The notes under the pieces: generated by a model | Seen by the model: only the letters and a program-made list of their open reading frames with translations | The model's database searches: none | Told to the model about the DNA's origin: nothing | In this document: piece by piece, positions 1,828 to 39,072 of the stretch | How positions within the stretch are numbered: position 1 is the first letter of the stretch | Layout of the letters: each line of letters opens with the position of its first letter | Origin: a virus | IMG/VR virus record: IMGVR_UViG_3300025769_000271 | Span: 1-41,183 of that record | DNA: 41,183 nucleotides | Direction: 5' to 3' (one strand) | Program-made: the position numbers and the translations under genes

Positions 1828-3132
1828 ATGGAATCAGGTTCCACCGAGATTAGATCAAAAGAAATCCAGTTAGTTAACATCAACGAATTAATCCCCTACG
1901 AAAAGAATATGAACTCACACTCGCCTGAGCAAATCGATAGGCTGTGTAAATTGATTGAGTATCAGGGATTTCGAGATCCTTTAATTGTTCAAAGGGGAAC
2001 TAATCGTATCGCGTGTGGTCACGGTAGGTGGGAATGCGCTAAGAAGTTAGGCATGGTAGAGGTTCCTGTTATTTACCAGGAGTTTGAATCAGAGGAGCAA
2101 TTCTATTCCTTTGTTGTTAGTCATAACGCCATAGCTGAATGGTCAATATTAGACCTGGGGCAAATTAACACTGATATTATCGATCTAGGTCCTGAGCTTG
2201 ATATTGAAATGCTCGGCTTAAAAGACTTCGAGGTTGAACCGCTTGATAGGTTAGACCCTCAGTCAGATGAGGACGCTGTCCCCGAAGTTGAACACCCGAT
2301 TACTAGGCGGGGTGATGTTTGGCTCCTGGGGAATCATAGAGCTATGTGCGGTGATAGCACAATGATTGATGATGTGGATAAGTTAATGGCGGGGGAAAAG
2401 GCTGATATGGTTTTTACTGACCCGCCCTATGGGATAAGTTTAGGGTTTGAAACACCGGAGCAAGCCAAGGCAAGAAACAGAAGAACAGATGGTCTTGTTG
2501 TTAAAAACGATGACTTGCAGGACGGTGATTTACAGGAGTTACTTACAGACTCATTAGCTCTTTCAACAGCAAACCTTAAGTCCGGTGGTGCTTTTTATAT
2601 ATGTAGTCCGATAGATAAAGAGGTGAGAAAGTTCATACAGGCTTGTGAGGACAATGACCTTCATTACCAAAGCGGTTTGGTTTGGAATAAATCTAGTCTT
2701 TGCTTGTCGAGACATGACTACCACCCAAAACATGAGATTATACATTACGGTTGGAAAAAAGGGGCTGCGCATAATTGGTACGCCGATAGGAAACAAACAA
2801 GCGTCTACGACTTCGATAAACCGTCAAGGTCTGAAAACCACCCAACAAGCAAACCTGTTGATTTGGTTTCTTATTATATTGGAAATGTTAGCAAGTCTGG
2901 AAACCTTGTTATTGATTCATTTCTCGGCTCCGGTTCCACATTAATCGCCTGTGAGAAAACCAACCGTAAATGCTACGGCATGGAACTAGATGAAAAATAC
3001 TGTGATGTGATTATAAAGCGTTGGGAAGAGTACACCGGAAATAAAGCCACGCTAGAGGCAACAGGTCAGACTTATGCTGAACTAAGGGTAGAGAGAGATG
3101 ATGACGCGGAACCGAACGGTATTAAAGAATGA
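1828..3132 (+). CDS. ParB-like domain fused to DNA adenine/N4-cytosine methyltransferase
   Basis: 434 residues. Residues about 14-110 form a ParB/Srx-type nuclease-like domain (ELIPYEKN, then GHGRWECAKKLG). Residues about 155-425 form a beta-class amino-methyltransferase: catalytic DPPY at 198-201, then the variable recognition region, then the S-adenosylmethionine motif FLGSGST at 365-371. It would methylate phage DNA, perhaps for anti-restriction or to mark DNA for packaging (inference from its place before terS). Start ATG with GGGAG 7 nt upstream. Its stop overlaps the terS ATG (ATGA). The homolog at 37834-39072 shares both ends but not the middle recognition region. Confidence 0.88.
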   Translation: MESGSTEIRSKEIQLVNINELIPYEKNMNSHSPEQIDRLCKLIEYQGFRDPLIVQRGTNRIACGHGRWECAKKLGMVEVPVIYQEFESEEQFYSFVVSHNAIAEWSILDLGQINTDIIDLGPELDIEMLGLKDFEVEPLDRLDPQSDEDAVPEVEHPITRRGDVWLLGNHRAMCGDSTMIDDVDKLMAGEKADMVFTDPPYGISLGFETPEQAKARNRRTDGLVVKNDDLQDGDLQELLTDSLALSTANLKSGGAFYICSPIDKEVRKFIQACEDNDLHYQSGLVWNKSSLCLSRHDYHPKHEIIHYGWKKGAAHNWYADRKQTSVYDFDKPSRSENHPTSKPVDLVSYYIGNVSKSGNLVIDSFLGSGSTLIACEKTNRKCYGMELDEKYCDVIIKRWEEYTGNKATLEATGQTYAELRVERDDDAEPNGIKE

Positions 3133-14226: not shown

Positions 14227-14247
14227 GGGATAAAATAGAGAGGAAAG

Positions 14248-14493
14248 ATGAAATTCGAAAGAAGAAGTTTAAAGGTTAATGTTTACGGGGAGGATTATGA
14301 AATAACCTTCCCCACTGTCAAACAGTCTCAGGATTACGCAAAATCTGTTAAGGATATTGATGATTCTGAGGCTACTGGCAAACTGCTTGGCTTTTTAGAT
14401 GGCTTAGGTTTACCAAAAAAAGTTTCAGAAGATATGGAGAGTGAACACCTTACTCAAATTGTCTCTGCACTGGTTCCTAGCCAAAAAAAGTAA
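14248..14493 (+). CDS. Tail assembly chaperone, short form (G-like)
   Basis: 81 residues, ATG after GAGAGGAAAG. It lies between tail-tube and tape-measure genes, where lambda-type phages encode gpG/gpGT. N-terminal beta strands with YGEDYEITFPTVKQ, then a helical part ending in VPSQKK-stop. The final codons form the slippery heptamer A AAA AAG directly before TAA, so a fraction of ribosomes should slip -1 and make the long form. Confidence 0.85.
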   Translation: MKFERRSLKVNVYGEDYEITFPTVKQSQDYAKSVKDIDDSEATGKLLGFLDGLGLPKKVSEDMESEHLTQIVSALVPSQKK

Positions 14494-14771
14494 CGCCTGA
14501 CATATTCTTTAAAGCTAAGTTAGCTTACTTTTATGGGTGGACAGCCGAATACGTTGAAAGCCTAGAATATGTCACTGCTTTGGAATATTTTAAAGCGATT
14601 GATGTTATAGAAGCTCAAGATTGTCTAATAAAAATGCAGGTTCAAGATTACCCACGCATGAATAAGCAATCTAGAAGCAAATTACATCGGACCATAAGTA
14701 AGAAGGCTTATCCAAAAGAGATGCAAAAAGAATTATCTTTTGAGGATTTCATAAGGAAAGTGAATGGCTGA
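14248..14771 (+). CDS. Tail assembly chaperone, long form via -1 frameshift (GT-like)
   Basis: Predicted product of 174 residues: 81 codons in the first frame to 14490, then continuation in the -1 frame from G14490 (VTPDIFFKAKLAYFYGW and onward) to the stop at 14769-14771. The second frame has no plausible own start near the junction; the first usual start is TTG 14580. The T-like half is helical and would bind the tape measure while G-like copies coat it. Conserved in siphoviruses. The end overlaps the tape-measure ATG by 8 bases. Confidence 0.88.
14484..14490 (+). promoter_or_regulatory. Slippery heptamer for -1 ribosomal frameshift
   Basis: A AAA AAG at 14484-14490, in phase with the upstream gene and followed at once by TAA. 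This is the best known bacterial slippery sequence. AAGCT and AGCTT around 14511-14525 form a small 5-bp inverted repeat downstream that could act as a weak stimulator. Confidence 0.88.
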
Positions 14772-16977
14772 CGAACGGATTGTAATTGAACTAGATTTAG
14801 ACACTGGTGAGATAACAAACAAATTCAAAAAGATTGAAGGTAAAGGTAAACAGGCTGGAAAGAAGTCTGGTAAAGCGTTTCAATCTGGCTTCAAACAAGG
14901 GATAGGACGACTTGATTTAGTTGTTGCTAATCTACAAGCCCAAGCCGTAGCTAAGTCCATTCAAGCTATTAGTTCAGCTTTTAGATCGGGAATAAATGAC
15001 CTTAGAAATTTTAGCCGTGGTATCGCTGAGATTAACTCTATCCTTCCAGGTAATGATAAGCTAACCAAACAAGCCACACAGTCGCTGATAAATTTTAGTT
15101 CTCAATTTGCCACTGGAACAACAGAGCAAGCTAGAGCCTTTTATAATATCGTTTCTGCTGGTGTAAGAGGTACAGCTCAACAAATTAAAGCACTAGAAGT
15201 GGCAAACACTGCTGCCGTTGCTGGTCTTGTTGATATTGATGCTGCCGCTAAGGTTTTAGTGTCATCTGTTAATGCTTACTCTAGGAGTGGGTTAACCGCT
15301 ACAAGAGCATCTGATGTTTTATTTGCTACCGTTAGAGAAGGTCAAACAACATTTAGTGAGCTGACCGATCAAGTTGGTGTTGTTGCACCCTTAGCCTCTG
15401 CTGCTGGCTTATCTTTTGATGAACTAGGTGGGGCTATCGCAGCCATCACCAAATCAGGTGTAAAAACAGATAGGGCTATCATTGGTCTTAGAGCAGTTCT
15501 TACCTCTATCGTTAAACCAGCTAGAGAGGCGAGTGACGAGGCTAAAAGGTTGGGGATTAACTTAACTCAATCGGGATTACAAGCTAAAGGTTTTGCGGGG
15601 TTTATTAGAGATATTCAACAAAGAACTGGTGGCTCTGCTGAATCAATCGCTAAATTGTTCGGAAACGTAAGAGCATTAACACCTATCCTACAACTAGCAA
15701 ACTCACAAGCCGCTAACTTTGAGGATATTTTAAAAAGAACTGCCGATAGTGCTAATAATACTGCTGACGCTTTTAAGATTATTGAGCAAAACCTCGATTT
15801 CAAAATAGCTAAAAGATCACAGGAGATAAAAAACTTCGGTTTAATTATCGCCCAAACAGCACAGCAAACATTCGGCTCAGTTATATCTCAGGTTATCCCG
15901 TCTATAGAAACGATACAAAGGGGCTTTATAAACTTTGCTAAAATCACTAATAGATTTGTCATAGCACCATTAGAGCTCGTTTATAATTCTTTTAGAATAG
16001 CATTTAATGGAATCAATACCATCGTGGCGGGGGCGGTTTCACTTGTTGGTAAAGAGCTTGGTAAGTTTGGAAAAATATTAGAAGATGCTTTCGGTGTTAC
16101 AAAACTAAGTGAGAACCTTAGGACTTTTGCTGAAACATCTAAAGAGGTGTTTGACCAGAATGCTAAAGGCTTAGGTGAGTCTGTTGATAATCTATTTCAA
16201 GGTACTGTTTTTGGTAAAACTGATGAGTTTATCAACAACCTAGAGACCAACCTATCTGCCGCTAAAGAAAAAATTGATACGTCTGGAATAGATGTTACTG
16301 GTGGTGGGGGTGGAGATAAGCCAGAGATTGATACAACTGGTGCAACTCAAGATGTTGTGAATTTAAGCACAGCTATTAGTCAACTAGGTTTAGGTTTTAG
16401 GTCCACTGAGGCTGAAATAAAAAAAGGTGTGGTTGGGTTATCTAAAGCCGCTGCTTTTCTAGGACAATCAATTAAAAAAGGAATCGGTCAAGGTATTGGT
16501 GCAGGGTTTGGTGCTTTTGGTGCTGCTCTAGTTAAGGGTGAAAATGCTTTAGATGCTTTTGCAAAAGCCTTTCTTGGAACATTAGGTCAAATGATGATTC
16601 AACAGGGAACAATGTTTATCCTGCAAGGTTTAGGATTCTCTGTAATACCAGGACTACAAGCTAGTGGTGGAACTCTAATCGCAACTGGTGGTGCATTAGC
16701 TATTGCTGGTGGTGCGTTAAGTGCCTTGGCTGGTGGTGGTGGAGCTGCTTCAAGTGTTGGTGCTGCGAGTGGTGCTGGTGGTGGTGGAATAGCTACTGGT
16801 CCAGAGAGTGGATTTACCGAGCAAGTAGAAGAAAGAGAAGAGCCAGGAACCGAGGTCAATCTTACAATAAATGGAGATGTGCTAGATTCTCAGGAAACTG
16901 GTACTAGAATAATTTCTCTGATTAACGATGCTTTTGAAAAAGATGGTGTAGTAATTAAAGGGGCATCATTCGCATGA
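14764..16977 (+). CDS. Tape measure protein
   Basis: 737 residues. The region about 60-330 reads as a PhageMin_Tail domain (repeated Ala, Gly, Ser-rich helices, for example QSLINFSSQFATGTTEQARAF without a gap), followed by coiled-coil and then a hydrophobic glycine/alanine-rich end (LIATGGALAIAGGALSALAG). By the usual rule of about 0.15 nm per residue the tail would be about 110 nm. It sets tail length and later leaves the tail during DNA injection; the hydrophobic end may enter the host membrane. ATG overlaps the chaperone end. Confidence 0.9.
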   Translation: MADERIVIELDLDTGEITNKFKKIEGKGKQAGKKSGKAFQSGFKQGIGRLDLVVANLQAQAVAKSIQAISSAFRSGINDLRNFSRGIAEINSILPGNDKLTKQATQSLINFSSQFATGTTEQARAFYNIVSAGVRGTAQQIKALEVANTAAVAGLVDIDAAAKVLVSSVNAYSRSGLTATRASDVLFATVREGQTTFSELTDQVGVVAPLASAAGLSFDELGGAIAAITKSGVKTDRAIIGLRAVLTSIVKPAREASDEAKRLGINLTQSGLQAKGFAGFIRDIQQRTGGSAESIAKLFGNVRALTPILQLANSQAANFEDILKRTADSANNTADAFKIIEQNLDFKIAKRSQEIKNFGLIIAQTAQQTFGSVISQVIPSIETIQRGFINFAKITNRFVIAPLELVYNSFRIAFNGINTIVAGAVSLVGKELGKFGKILEDAFGVTKLSENLRTFAETSKEVFDQNAKGLGESVDNLFQGTVFGKTDEFINNLETNLSAAKEKIDTSGIDVTGGGGGDKPEIDTTGATQDVVNLSTAISQLGLGFRSTEAEIKKGVVGLSKAAAFLGQSIKKGIGQGIGAGFGAFGAALVKGENALDAFAKAFLGTLGQMMIQQGTMFILQGLGFSVIPGLQASGGTLIATGGALAIAGGALSALAGGGGAASSVGAASGAGGGGIATGPESGFTEQVEEREEPGTEVNLTINGDVLDSQETGTRIISLINDAFEKDGVVIKGASFA

Positions 16978-17756
16978 CGATAAAAACAAGATCAGCTTTT
17001 TATTATGTAGACGGGATAGATGCTGACTCTATCTATCTTAACTTTATAGAGCCTACACAGTTAAATATAGAACTAGCCGCTACTATGTTAGTGGGAACCT
17101 ATTCAATGACTCAACTTGCAAGCGAGATCCAAAGGGGAATGAACGATGCTGGAGATAACACATACACAGTTACTTTTGATCGCAGCACTCGGGTCATGTC
17201 TATTACTGGAGACGCTTCGTTTAATCTACTCGTTACAACGGGTTCAAATTCGGGTGCCTCAGTCTTTCCTCTTATTGGCTTTACCTCTGATAAAACGGGA
17301 TTAAGTACCTATGATGCTGACGAGGCTATGGGTGACGAGTATATCCCCCAGTATGCTTTTCAAGATTATAAGGCTTTTGATAATAGTGTAGAAGGAATAA
17401 GACCGTCTATAAATGAGAGTGCTAGTGGTGTGATAGAAGTTATCACCTATGGACAACGCTCCTTTATGGAGGGCAATATTAAATGGATAACCAATCGTGA
17501 GAGGTCTAAAGACTCTTTCATAAGCAATAACCCCACGGCTCTTGAAGATGTTAGAGCCTTTCTTAATTTCGCTATTACTAAACAGAATATGGAGTTTATG
17601 GAAGATATTTCAGACAGGAATACTTTTGACACCGTATTGCTAGAGAGAACGAGAAAATCAACAAAGGGAACTGGTTACGAACTTAAAGAGTTGATCGGTC
17701 AGGGTTTAGATGGTTACTTTGAAACAGGAACTTTAAGATTTAGGAAGGTAGAATAA
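16974..17756 (+). CDS. Distal tail protein candidate
   Basis: 260 residues directly after the tape measure (ATGA overlap), the usual place of a distal tail (Dit-like) protein. N-terminal strands, the segment YTVTFDRSTRVMSITGD, and a helical C-terminal part with NTFDTVLLERTRKS. No direct family match by eye. Its stop is one base from the GIY-YIG gene start; AGGAAGG upstream of that start lies inside its end. Confidence 0.55.
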   Translation: MTIKTRSAFYYVDGIDADSIYLNFIEPTQLNIELAATMLVGTYSMTQLASEIQRGMNDAGDNTYTVTFDRSTRVMSITGDASFNLLVTTGSNSGASVFPLIGFTSDKTGLSTYDADEAMGDEYIPQYAFQDYKAFDNSVEGIRPSINESASGVIEVITYGQRSFMEGNIKWITNRERSKDSFISNNPTALEDVRAFLNFAITKQNMEFMEDISDRNTFDTVLLERTRKSTKGTGYELKELIGQGLDGYFETGTLRFRKVE

Positions 17757-17757
17757 T

Positions 17758-18276
17758 ATGGCTGTTATATATAGAGGATTATTGCCTGACGGAAGGAGTT
17801 ATGTGGGCTCTACGGTAAGAAAATTCTCAACCAGACTGAATGAGCATAGATACTACTTCAAAGTTAAAAAGTATAAGATGTACAAAAACATTAACTGTGC
17901 TTTTGATGATATAGAGTGGTCAATACTCGAGGAGTGTGACGATGGTGTTGTCTGGGATAGAGAGAATTATTATATTAGAAAATTCGACTCTATTGAGAAT
18001 GGTTTAAACTCTGGACTAGCGAGTAAAGGGTGTGTTGGTAGATTTGTTTCAGAGAGTGAGAAATTTATTAAAAAGAGGGCGAGAGAGTTTAGAATGCCAT
18101 ATTTTAAAATATCCTATAAAAACAATCCATCATATAATTTGATTAGTAATAGTTATAGTAGAGCATCTGAATTTACAGGCTTCAGTAAAGACACTGTAAG
18201 AAAAAAGATAAAATACTCGCATAGTTGTAAAAAATTTAATTATGAATATTTAAATGGGGGTGAATTATCTCAGTAA
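17758..18276 (+). CDS. GIY-YIG endonuclease (mobile)
   Basis: 172 residues. N-terminal GIY-YIG nuclease: VIY (3-5), YVG (15-17), catalytic-type R26 in STRLNEH, and E69-N70 in WDRENYYI. The C-terminal part (SRASEFTGFSKDTVRKKIKY) is a DNA-binding HTH of the kind seen in NUMOD-carrying homing enzymes. It cuts a specific site to copy itself into phages lacking it. It lies exactly at the 5' end of the tail fiber frame, which has no usual start codon of its own. The first codons ATG GCT GT match what the fiber start should be (see findings). Confidence 0.85.
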   Translation: MAVIYRGLLPDGRSYVGSTVRKFSTRLNEHRYYFKVKKYKMYKNINCAFDDIEWSILEECDDGVVWDRENYYIRKFDSIENGLNSGLASKGCVGRFVSESEKFIKKRAREFRMPYFKISYKNNPSYNLISNSYSRASEFTGFSKDTVRKKIKYSHSCKKFNYEYLNGGELSQ

Positions 18277-20822
18277 ATAATGGCGCACCAGCCGATGAGA
18301 ACACGTTTAACCTTGGCTTTTTATCTAGGTTAGCTGATTCAGACACTATAGGAAAGATTGACTTAAACGAGGCTTCTAGCCCTGCAATTACCGATCTTCA
18401 AGGGACCGTTAACGACCAGCGAACAGATATAGACCAAAATAGAACTGATATTGACTCCAACGATGTTGAGTTAGCCGATCATGAGTCAAGAATCTCTACC
18501 AATGAAACTGATATTTCTAACCTACAGGGTGACACTGTTGATTTAACAACAAACCAAACCGCTGCGGGTGAGAAAACATGGTCAGATGATGCCTTTTTTA
18601 GCCAAGACGTAACAATCACTGGTGACTTAACTGTAGACGGAACCACTACAACACTAAATACCGCCACGCTTGATGTAGAAGATCAAAATATAACTGTTAA
18701 TAACGGTGGAAATGATGCCTCATCAGAAGGTGCGGGTTTAACAGTAGAAAGAACTGGGACTGATGGAACATTCTTATATGAAGATGCTTTAGATAATAAA
18801 TTCAAGTTAGGTGCCTTAGGTTCTGAGGTAGAAGTTTCTGGTATCGTAAAAAATACCCTAGCAAACTTACAGGCTCTGGTTAATCCATCAGAATCTAATC
18901 TTTATTTTGCTACTGATACTCTAGAGACATTCAGATCAGACGGGACTCAGTTGCTACCATTTGGAACAGGTGGCGGGGGCGGTTTAGATAACTGGCTTGC
19001 GGAGGATTTCGAATCAACTCAGGCTAGTGATTTCTCCACAGGTAACTCTGCAACTTTCGAGGGTGGTGGAACTCTTGATGGTGTTTTATCAGATGAAACA
19101 ACTAGCCCACTATCTAAAGACAGCTCACTAAAATATGTAGCGGGCTCTAGTTCTTTAAACGACTATTTCGCATCGCCTGTAATTGAAGTTGATTTCAAAC
19201 AACAAGAAAACGATTCTGGTTTTACATTCTATTTCACATGGGACGGGACGACAGATATTGAAGCGGTGGTTTGGGACGAGACTAATTCCAGTAAGCTCAA
19301 TTCTGTTTTAGATGTAATTAATACTGCCGATGGTGCTACTAGATACTCGTCAACCTTCTACCCACCCTCTACCTGCACTCAAGTTAGGTATGGATTCCAT
19401 ATTCTAGAGGCTCCCACTAATGGAGATGTTTTAATAGTAGATGATGTAGAATTTTCAACTAATCCTTTTACTTATAAAGAGATAATAGAAACACAGGCGT
19501 ATTCATTAGAGCAACCAGGTAACGCTCTAACCAATAGGGCTAATGAAATAGAATTTAACTTGGGAACGGCAACTATAACTAATAATGGTGCTAATTTATT
19601 AAGAATAGAAGATGATTCAGCAAACACTAGAACTAAATTTATAGCTAATAGAAAAACTATTTTAAGTATAGATGCAGCCGGATTGCTCGACACTACCAAT
19701 AGGTCCATAGGTTTCACTAAAAATGGAACACTTATAAGTAACGGTAGTGTGAATAGTGGAGCCAACACCTCGGCAGGACATAGTTTTGAAATTGAACTAG
19801 AGGCAGAGGATTTTGTAACTGTAACTAGCGTGACTAACAGTAGCAGTATTGGCGGTGCTAGTGTAACTAATAATGCAGACACTTTTAGGCTTAATTTTTC
19901 AGCCACCGCCACCGCAGAAAGTGTAATCACCCCCGCCCGCTCAAACATGAGTGACTGGACAGCATATACCCCGACAACTCAAGGAATAGGAACTGCCACT
20001 GATGTAAACTTACAATGGCGCAGGATTGGTGACACCTTACACGTTCAAGGCGATATTACCACTGGAACGGTTACTGGTTCAGAGTTACAAATTGGATTAC
20101 CCTCTGGGTTAACAATTGACCTGCCCACTTCAAACGTAACCTATGTGGGGACAACAATTAGAGGACAAGTAACCACAGGAAATGATTTTTCTACACTAGC
20201 CACAGATGGTGACACTTTTGTTAATTTTTCAATTGTTGGCTCATCTTCATTCGACCCTTTAGTTCCACAAAACGCCAGCACTATTATAAACTCATCGGCA
20301 GAAATGAGTCTGCAATTTTCGGTTCCAATCGCAGAATGGACTAGCGATGCCCAGTTTTTAGCAGCGGTACCGGTGCAGAAGGTTTGCTATCTTAAAGATG
20401 TAAAAGCTAGTGGTGTATCTGGTGGAACTTTCACAAGTGGTTCATATCAAACTAGAACATTAAATACAATTGAAGGCGATTCTAGTATTGTGTCTCTTTC
20501 GTCCAATCAATTTACATTACCGGCAGGTAAGTATGGTATAGAAGGGAGTGCTATTGGCTATAAGGTAGATTCTCATAAGACTATTATCTATAATACTAGT
20601 GACTCAACCACAGATATAATTGGTTCTGTGGAAGAATCTGCGGCAGTTAACACTACGGGAACTAGATCATTTCTAATGGGTGAAATAGAGATAACAAGTA
20701 GTAAAACTTTTGAGCTTCGTCATAGATGCCTCACTACTCGCTCAACTAATGGTTATGGAGATTCATCTTCCTTTGGTGATAATGAGATTTATTCACAAAT
20801 TAAAATTACTAAATTGAGGTAA
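18264..20822 (+). CDS. Long tail fiber, start codon displaced
   Basis: The frame is open from 18264 to TAA 20820-20822 (852 codons) but holds no ATG, GTG or TTG before TTG 18951. The upstream 225 codons are clearly fiber: VNNGAPADENTFNLGF, a coiled coil (DQRTDIDQNRTDIDSND), then DLTVDGTTTTLNTATLDVED, a common phage fiber segment. Middle: beta-rich. The C-terminal 140 residues (from QKVCYLKDVKASG) look like a C1q/TNF-type receptor-binding head. ATT or ATC at 18264/18267 behind GGGGGTG is one possible start; a spliced or frameshifted link to the ATG of the GIY-YIG gene is another. Binds the host surface. Confidence 0.7.
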   Translation: MISVNNGAPADENTFNLGFLSRLADSDTIGKIDLNEASSPAITDLQGTVNDQRTDIDQNRTDIDSNDVELADHESRISTNETDISNLQGDTVDLTTNQTAAGEKTWSDDAFFSQDVTITGDLTVDGTTTTLNTATLDVEDQNITVNNGGNDASSEGAGLTVERTGTDGTFLYEDALDNKFKLGALGSEVEVSGIVKNTLANLQALVNPSESNLYFATDTLETFRSDGTQLLPFGTGGGGGLDNWLAEDFESTQASDFSTGNSATFEGGGTLDGVLSDETTSPLSKDSSLKYVAGSSSLNDYFASPVIEVDFKQQENDSGFTFYFTWDGTTDIEAVVWDETNSSKLNSVLDVINTADGATRYSSTFYPPSTCTQVRYGFHILEAPTNGDVLIVDDVEFSTNPFTYKEIIETQAYSLEQPGNALTNRANEIEFNLGTATITNNGANLLRIEDDSANTRTKFIANRKTILSIDAAGLLDTTNRSIGFTKNGTLISNGSVNSGANTSAGHSFEIELEAEDFVTVTSVTNSSSIGGASVTNNADTFRLNFSATATAESVITPARSNMSDWTAYTPTTQGIGTATDVNLQWRRIGDTLHVQGDITTGTVTGSELQIGLPSGLTIDLPTSNVTYVGTTIRGQVTTGNDFSTLATDGDTFVNFSIVGSSSFDPLVPQNASTIINSSAEMSLQFSVPIAEWTSDAQFLAAVPVQKVCYLKDVKASGVSGGTFTSGSYQTRTLNTIEGDSSIVSLSSNQFTLPAGKYGIEGSAIGYKVDSHKTIIYNTSDSTTDIIGSVEESAAVNTTGTRSFLMGEIEITSSKTFELRHRCLTTRSTNGYGDSSSFGDNEIYSQIKITKLR

Positions 20823-37345: not shown

Positions 37346-37846
37346 ATGGCTCAGGGTCACATACCGATAACACAATGGTCAGAAATACCAAATCATAGCG
37401 ATTATTTAATATCTAGCTGTGGCAACGTCTTAAGCCTAAAAAGATCAAAACCCTTACTTAGAAGCCAAACACTAGATAATTGGAACTATAAGCAATTATC
37501 CTTATCTAAAGATGGTAAAAAAAATACATATAGAACACACTGTTTAGTGGCGAACTCTTATATCCAAAAAATTCCTAAAGGTATGCAGGTTAACCATAAA
37601 GACGGTGTAAAGGCTAATAACTCTTTATCAAACCTAGAGATCGTAACACCAAAAGAAAATACCCGTCACGCTATAGAGGGTGGGCTAAAGGGTAGCTATT
37701 TTAAAAATACAATAAGCAAAGAAACCGCAGATAATATAAAAGAAAAACTACTTTTGGGTTGCAGCGTTCGCGAGATTGCCGAATCATTAAATGTTAACAC
37801 GGGGATAGTTTCTCAAATTAAATATGGTAGAACATGGAAAACTTAG
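37346..37846 (+). CDS. NUMOD4/HNH_3 homing endonuclease inserted before the methyltransferase
   Basis: 166 residues. NUMOD4-type start (ITQWSEIPNHSDYLISSCGN), HNH_3 core MQVNHKDGVKANNSLSNLE with VTPKENTRHA, and a C-terminal HTH (SVREIAESLNVNTGIVSQIK). It is absent from the left copy, where the methyltransferase starts at this same point behind the same GGGAGTAGAT ribosome site. The methyltransferase ATG now lies inside the last codons of this gene. A clean example of homing insertion at a gene boundary. Confidence 0.85.
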   Translation: MAQGHIPITQWSEIPNHSDYLISSCGNVLSLKRSKPLLRSQTLDNWNYKQLSLSKDGKKNTYRTHCLVANSYIQKIPKGMQVNHKDGVKANNSLSNLEIVTPKENTRHAIEGGLKGSYFKNTISKETADNIKEKLLLGCSVREIAESLNVNTGIVSQIKYGRTWKT

Positions 37847-39072
37847 TTAAAACCGAAATCAAATCTAAAGAAATCCAGTTTGTAAAAACATCAGAGCTAA
37901 TCCCTTACGATAAAAACATGAACAAACACACCCCCGATCAGATAGATAGGCTGTGTAAGCTCATTGAATACCAGGGTTTTCGTGACCCGCTTATCGTTCA
38001 GTTGGGAACCAATAGGGTGGCTTGCGGTCATGGCAGATTAGAGGCGGCAAAGAAACTAGGAATGGCAGAGGTGCCAGTTATCCTCCAAGAGTTTGAATCG
38101 GAGGAACAATTCTATTCTTTTGTTGTGAGTCATAACGCAATAGCAGAATGGTCAGCATTAGACCTGGGGCAAATAAATACAGATATAATTGACCTTGGAC
38201 CAGATCTTGATATTGATTTATTAGGGATTAAAGACTTTGTGTTAGAGCCTATTGAGAAGTTTGAGCCTCAGTCAGATGAGGACGCTGTGCCAGAGGTTGA
38301 ACACCCTATTACGAGAAAAGGGGATGTTTGGCTTCTGGGGAATCATCGAGTGATGTGTGGTGATTCGACAATGATTGATGATGTTGAGAAGTTAATGGCG
38401 GGGGAGAAGATAGACCTTATTCACACCGACCCGCCTTATGGAATAAAGGAAGATGCTTCAAAAAGAATAACTAGAGAGACGAATAGTTTAGCTAAATCCA
38501 ACAGTCATTTGGTTAATTTTAACGATGAAAATACCGATTGCGCTATAGATGCTTTTAATTTGTGCGAAGGATTTAATATAAAAAATCAGGTGTGGTGGGG
38601 GGCTAATTATTATTGCCAATCACTCCCTGAGACAGCTAATTGGATAATCTGGGACAAGCGTGTCGAGGAAAAGCAAAAGGATAACAATTCCGACTGTGAG
38701 TTAGCATGGGTAAAATCTAAATGGAATAGTGCTAGAATATTTAGGCACTTATGGAAAGGGTTAATTAAGGATAGTGAGCATGGACAGAAAAGAGTTCACC
38801 CAACACAGAAACCTGTCGCCTTGGCTGAATGGTGTATCGATTTTTTCAAGGAAGATATTGAAAACGTCATGGATTTATTTGGCGGCAGTGGTTCTACACT
38901 GATAGCCTGTGAGGTGAAAAACAAAAAATGTTACATGATGGAGTTTACCGAACACTACTGCGATGTAATTGTAAAGCGATGGGAAGAATACACCGGAAAT
39001 AAAGCAACCCTAGAATCCACAGGTCAGACTTATACTGAGCTAAAGGTTGAGAGAGATGGCGCGCCCTCGTAA
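37834..39072 (+). CDS. ParB-like domain fused to DNA methyltransferase, alternative specificity
   Basis: 412 residues. ParB-like N-terminus (about 15-110; ELIPYDKN, GHGRLEAAKKLG) and amino-methyltransferase motifs DPPY (199-202) and FGGSGST (349-355). Ends are close to the protein at 1828-3132, but the region between, WWGANYYCQSLPETANWIIW and on to HPTQKPVALAEWC, is unrelated in detail. Target specificity therefore differs. Start ATG inside the HNH gene end, with a poor ribosome site, so translation may depend on coupling. Confidence 0.87.
   Translation: MENLVKTEIKSKEIQFVKTSELIPYDKNMNKHTPDQIDRLCKLIEYQGFRDPLIVQLGTNRVACGHGRLEAAKKLGMAEVPVILQEFESEEQFYSFVVSHNAIAEWSALDLGQINTDIIDLGPDLDIDLLGIKDFVLEPIEKFEPQSDEDAVPEVEHPITRKGDVWLLGNHRVMCGDSTMIDDVEKLMAGEKIDLIHTDPPYGIKEDASKRITRETNSLAKSNSHLVNFNDENTDCAIDAFNLCEGFNIKNQVWWGANYYCQSLPETANWIIWDKRVEEKQKDNNSDCELAWVKSKWNSARIFRHLWKGLIKDSEHGQKRVHPTQKPVALAEWCIDFFKEDIENVMDLFGGSGSTLIACEVKNKKCYMMEFTEHYCDVIVKRWEEYTGNKATLESTGQTYTELKVERDGAPS

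Follow-up and report, generated by a model that had tools for sequence, protein, structure and literature searches.

How can a gene be translated when another gene occupies its start? The question is raised by the tail fiber of a virus record of 41,183 bp with siphophage-type genes, analysed here in full and called the window. The fiber frame is open from 18264 to 20822 and its C-terminal part matches the phrog_24210 tail fiber, while its first ATG, GTG or TTG is codon 230 of the frame, at 18951. The place where relatives begin their fiber is taken by a homing-endonuclease-like ORF, which starts 1 nt after the stop of a 260-aa tail gene, t260 (Table 1). A first-pass annotation had described a GIY-YIG gene sitting on the start of a fiber frame that lacks ATG, GTG and TTG for 229 codons of typical fiber sequence. 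All of this holds: the endonuclease ORF overlaps the fiber frame, which lies in its −1 frame, by 13 nt, a frame scan returns the same startless stretch, and the first codons of that stretch match the N-termini of related fibers. Among all forward stop-to-stop frames of the window, the fiber is the sole gene-sized, non-nested frame that starts so late, so that the missing start is not a general annotation problem of this genome.

Elsewhere in the window, two overlapping frames precede the tape measure (14239-14771), the first ending AGC CAA AAA AAG TAA; they resemble the common pair of tail assembly chaperones in which AAAAAAG is the site of −1 frameshifting. Two further regions, one near each end of the record (1828-3132 and 37834-39072), both match PHROG 498 (DNA methyltransferase) and have ParB-like N-terminal parts.

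Table 1. Features at and around the fiber start, in positions of the window
Feature	Position	Strand	Basis
Tape measure, siphophage-type gene	14764-16977		
t260, 260-aa tail gene directly 5' of the insert; marker gene for finding the 77 relatives	16974-17756	+	ORF, relatives, alignment
GIY-YIG homing-endonuclease-like ORF, 172 aa, at the place where relatives begin the fiber	17758-18276	+	ORF, PHROG match
GGGGGTG, extended Shine-Dalgarno (SD) within the last endonuclease codons (Gly-Gly)	18256-18262	+	Conservation, duplex energy
ATT, other start candidate, rejected	18264-18266	+	TTT in L002; 3 nt from GGGGG
ATC, putative start codon of the fiber, decoded as fMet	18267-18269	+	Alignment with relatives' ATG/GTG/TTG; kept in L002
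Tail fiber CDS, 851 codons from the proposed ATC start plus stop	18267-20822	+	phrog_24210, dN/dS
Endonuclease TAA stop, 4 nt 3' of the fiber ATC; possible termination-reinitiation	18274-18276	+	Sequence; overlap in relatives

Position of the fiber start

Relatives were taken from IMG/VR by a t260 profile search, which returned 80 loci, 77 of them distinct; the phage collection searched held no isolated phage relative of t260 or of the fiber. At most t260 loci the fiber follows directly 3' of t260 and starts with M-[SAT]-V-x-[ND]-G-Q or M-P-I-x-F-K-S, the canonical starts at 60 loci being 48 ATG, 6 GTG and 6 TTG. Small ORFs other than the fiber follow t260 in two loci (L109 and L123, in both after 4775), so that the fiber has moved or been lost there, and in a third (L117:4768-4835) t260 is separated from a fiber starting with GTG by a mini-ORF of about 20 codons (MSVAVIFFCWLCIYGKGERT).

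In the alignment, the ATC of the window falls on the start codon of about 60 insert-free relatives, and the TCA GTA AAT AAT that follows it on their codons 2-5; in the nearest endonuclease-free relative (L066) the fiber begins TTG TCA GTA AAC AAT GGA. By this comparison the sequence that belongs to the fiber itself starts with TCA at 18270 (codon 2, Ser) and not at 18275, and the break lies just after the start codon rather than two and two-thirds codons into the gene, as the first-pass annotation had it. The MAVNN start proposed on that basis is not ancestral either, since insert-free relatives have M-S-V-N/S-[ND]-G-Q; the join of ATG GCT GT to A AAT AAT is a coincidence of GCTGT, the GIY-YIG gene of one relative (L011) starting ATG AAT TGT.

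The junction of the window recurs in L002 (IMGVR_UViG_3300034980_000340) as the GIY-YIG end followed by GGGGGTGATTT-ATC-TCA-GTA, in front of a fiber 76% identical to that of the window (24% diverged). The SD, the ATC and the stop overlap are all kept there, and the codon before the ATC is not. That codon, the ATT of the window, was rejected as a start for this lack of conservation and for lying too close to the SD; of the ATT/ATC start considered earlier, the comparative alignment picks the second half. Upstream of the ATC the fiber frame contains a single codon and then a stop, and downstream the next ATG, GTG or TTG is codon 229 from the ATC. On this comparative evidence it is highly probable that the fiber is initiated at the near-cognate AUC, with (M)SVNNGAPADENTFNLGFLSR as the predicted N-terminal peptide.

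The contig L011, from the same sample as L002, carries t260 followed by a GIY-YIG start (ATG AAT TGT TCA ATA) that overlaps the t260 stop (ATGA), and is probably the upstream half of the L002 arrangement. Both contigs end inside the endonuclease gene (L002:1 and L011:6884), about 50 nt apart when placed against the window, and these breaks may represent coexisting alleles or copies. The DNA pattern GGNGGNNNNTTATCTCAGTAA was found among viral contigs only in L002 and in the contig of L015; its 38 matches in cellular genomes are not above a rough chance estimate.

Weak start codons and their ribosome-binding sites

The fiber start is non-canonical in eight loci (collectively AUH): AUC in the window, L002, L015 and L088, AUA in L103, and AUU in L078, L082 and L089, the last with the same junction as L090. 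The next ATG, GTG or TTG is 132-229 codons downstream in five of the eight, and at codon 30 (L103), 23 (L082) and 42 (L088) in the rest, after conserved N-terminal sequence. As a control, t260 itself starts with one of the three canonical codons in 77/77 distinct loci. Start-codon type was mapped as a label on a t260 tree of 77 rows, where AUH takes five changes, all forced by well-supported (starred) branches, a count of true origins that recombination at the start could lower; the groups are window+L011, L015+L088, L078, L082+L089+L090, and L103. Judged from this tree, AUH starts arose or were lost repeatedly.

What could make such codons serviceable? The window has GGGGGTG-N4 before the ATC, leaving six nucleotides between GGGGG and the start, with a duplex energy of −14.3 kcal/mol. 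The heptamer is kept in L002, L015 and L103 and appears as GGAGGTG or GGTGGTG in L088, L082 and L089. Mean anti-SD pairing is −12.6 kcal/mol at AUH loci against −7.6 at ATG loci (p=1e-4, or 1e-3 when each close pair counts as a single row), computed over 20 nt upstream with the common bacterial anti-SD, which may not be the 16S tail of the host. The arrangement GGNGG-N6-start is found at 7/8 AUH loci and at 3/60 canonical ones (Fisher 9e-7, or 2e-4 counting lineages), and TTG is the start codon at each of these three canonical loci. Its geometry is constant in four of the five AUH lineages, the exception being L078, with a weaker SD (−6.6) and no G-rich motif. The AUH codon is the one device that all eight loci share; a strong SD stands in front of it in seven.

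The endonuclease and its possible remnants

The window ORF starts ATG GCT GTT ATA and matches PHROG 5123, 'homing endonuclease with GIY-YIG motif' (E=4e-7); no Pfam match was found for the protein itself. Its distant homolog in L103 (33% identity, pairwise E=2e-18) passes the Pfam GIY-YIG cut-off. The endonuclease is free-standing, with its own start and stop and no Rfam intron around the ORF. It is present in the window, L002/L011 and L103 and absent from the other relatives with a readable junction, that is, it occurs in two lineages, the other AUH lineages having short stretches resembling its 3' end or no insert. In both lineages that bear it, the C-termini (YLNGGELSQ*, YLDGGDLSQ* and YLNGGGL*) hold the SD and the stops overlap the fiber start, with a stretch GGGGGTG-NN-TT-AU continuing the 3' end of the gene. 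The stop/start overlap of the window is also seen in L002 and in a short ORF of L015; in L103 a TAG overlaps the ATA.

This short ORF, in a locus that has no endonuclease, comprises 12 codons (ATG ATT AAT GTA ACT ACA GGG GGT GGG TTA TCT CAG TAA), begins on the t260 stop and ends like the endonuclease. L066 likewise has an 11-codon ORF (ATG AAA TAT ATA TTA GGG GGT AAA AAT TGT CAG TAA). Both are likely scars left by deletion of an endonuclease, with the initiation site of the fiber retained, a reading drawn from a resemblance that follows in part from the shared SD and fiber codons. The peptides LTGGEIFQ/LTGG of L082/L089 and L067 may be older scars; their likeness, partly forced by the same constraint, is suggestive only. 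L078 bears no likeness to the endonuclease end. Separately, two fibers (L024:3890-3943 and L092:2652-2714) have an in-frame extension between the ATG and the conserved T/S-V, both ending GFCF, which may be the scar of a further insertion at this site.

Proposed initiation after invasion, and its alternatives

Could the fiber instead be an extension of the endonuclease? A programmed −1 frameshift near the endonuclease end, yielding an endonuclease-fiber fusion, would suit the relative frame and the 13-nt overlap, and the GGG GGT run in L103 and L015 could permit a slip. In the window and L002, however, the G run is directly followed in the fiber frame by a TGA (window 18261-18263), which in the window leaves only GAA TTA TCT CAG to slip on, with no X XXY YYZ site; no slippery heptamer occurs in the overlap (GAA TTA TCT CAG TAA in the window, GAT TTA TCT CAG TAA in L002). 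In three AUU loci (L078, L082 and L089) there is no ORF upstream from which a shift could occur, and the fusion would add about 170 residues, whereas the ATC position is exactly where related fibers start; all of this makes frameshifting very improbable. Removal of the insert from the RNA as a minimal intron, or its bypass by the ribosome, draws on the bypass of T4 gene 60 and on phage td-type group I introns, in which an endonuclease is associated with an interrupted reading frame. The tie is the same here, an endonuclease gene within coding sequence being typical of mobile introns, and the L103 homolog has a weak likeness, below the cut-off, to TIGR01453 ('group I intron endonuclease'). Unlike in those systems, we find no intron core and no take-off/landing match, and the lack of a start persists where the insert is gone: relatives with spacers of 13-82 nt (13 and 25 nt, for example) are equally startless. 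An Rfam scan of 16900-19000 at E up to 5 gave no match, with only a chance match in L103, the ORF fills nearly the whole insert, and the junction folds no better than shuffles (z −0.24). For bypass of the gene 60 type, no matched take-off and landing codons were found, and the gap is an ORF that some AUH relatives lack. The first-pass suggestions of splicing and of a ribosome slip or bypass, confronted with these startless short spacers, the lack of an Rfam intron or of a shared site and the TGA in the fiber frame, can hardly be upheld, and we give splicing or bypass next to no probability.

The missing canonical start would also be accounted for if the fiber were not made in this variant, as a dead gene or an assembly error; absence of the fiber from this variant had been entertained earlier. 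Against a dead gene, the first 200 fiber codons of the window and L002, which have the same arrangement, give a dN/dS of 0.116 at high synonymous divergence (dS 1.45), and codons 2-30 give 0.158; the fiber N-terminus is under purifying selection in two AUH pairs (0.12 and 0.23), and the endonuclease is constrained too (0.215). Misassembly is contradicted by the recurrence of the arrangement in independent contigs from several samples, and loss of the fiber in either form is likewise extremely unlikely. A possibility of more substance, still clearly the less likely one, is that AUH starts belong to the way these phages translate their fiber, low or IF3-sensitive synthesis being selected, with the endonuclease upstream by coincidence; initiation would still be at AUC 18267. 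AUU is used without any endonuclease in L078, L082 and L089/L090, so that a general causal role of the endonuclease cannot be demonstrated, AUC persists in the endonuclease-free L015 and L088, and TTG or GTG starts are used in 12/60 canonical loci. Moreover, a single mutation (C to G) would turn ATC into ATG, and none of the AUC loci shows this reversion; with so strong an SD, little expression may be enough, or the 3' G may come at a cost, for instance by forming part of an endonuclease target. Coincidence is opposed by the continuity of the GGGGGTG-NN-TT-AU stretch with the endonuclease 3' end and by the remnant-like ORFs of L015 and L066. It is doubtful, if conceivable, that the change from AUG to AUH was itself selected by destroying the cleavage site of a resident or invading GIY-YIG endonuclease, the strong SD compensating and the immunity outlasting the endonuclease. 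No phage-encoded tRNA that would explain odd initiation was found.

We therefore strongly favour a fiber start at AUC that followed invasion by the endonuclease and was rescued by the SD in the endonuclease's last codons. A free-standing GIY-YIG homing endonuclease gene would have invaded the fiber start beside t260 and taken over the position of the start codon, leaving the fiber to be translated from the AUC with fMet-tRNA. Initiation there would work because the last endonuclease codons carry the extended SD GGGGGUG, and ribosomes terminating at the endonuclease stop may reinitiate at the AUC. With a weak AUH codon behind a strong SD, fiber would be made at a low to moderate level, which would be sufficient for a virion component present in few copies. 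The case is made from sequence, by position, conservation, purifying selection, the strong SD and repeated occurrence in five lineages on the t260 tree; from these we infer AUC initiation, the role of reinitiation and the reading of short 3' stretches as scars.

A start of the AUU/AUC/AUA type is found in infC of Escherichia coli. Such starts are known in bacteria and rarely used, IF3 discriminating against them (PMC4611024), and Borrelia PncA is a verified case with AUU (PMC13398362). An AUA start in E. coli is put at no more than about 1% of AUG in the figure of Hecht et al. as quoted in PMC12864459, and an rpoS AUA mutant showed a reduction of only up to five-fold (PMC12864459). The figure of about 1% might count against our reading, fiber expression being too low unless context helps. 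The fiber codon likewise has no 3' G and is expected to be IF3-sensitive, but the bacterial genes (PMC4611024, PMC13398362) are isolated cellular cases, whereas here a structural phage gene is concerned, and a single locus shows it in several lineages.

Cases of phage genes split by a free-standing endonuclease are also known: mobE in Aeh1 nrdA, mobA in T4 gene 60 and a seg-like gene in gene 43 of phage 25 (PMC2988022). As in those cases, the endonuclease sits in an important phage gene that stays functional; there, however, two polypeptides result, whereas here the insertion falls on the start codon, the protein remains complete and its former start would be replaced by a new near-cognate one. 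Stop-start overlaps of the T4 nrdA/mobE type suggest translational coupling (PMC2988022), as does the overlap here, with the difference that the downstream structural gene, and not only the endonuclease gene, starts in the overlap, and with AUC. In the open-access literature we found no description of an AUU or AUC start in a phage fiber or of recurrent AUH starts there, nor of an endonuclease that took the start off a gene and whose 3' end provides that gene's initiation site.

Gene finders restricted to ATG, GTG and TTG would shorten or miss such fibers, the 851-aa fiber of the window being called as 623 aa from a TTG. The occurrence of AUC, AUA and AUU at one locus in five lineages, beside canonical relatives, makes the combination of a weak codon with a strong SD testable in natural sequence. 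The locus suggests that a gene can survive the loss of its start codon to a selfish element when the last codons of the intruder double as a ribosome-binding site for a near-cognate start.
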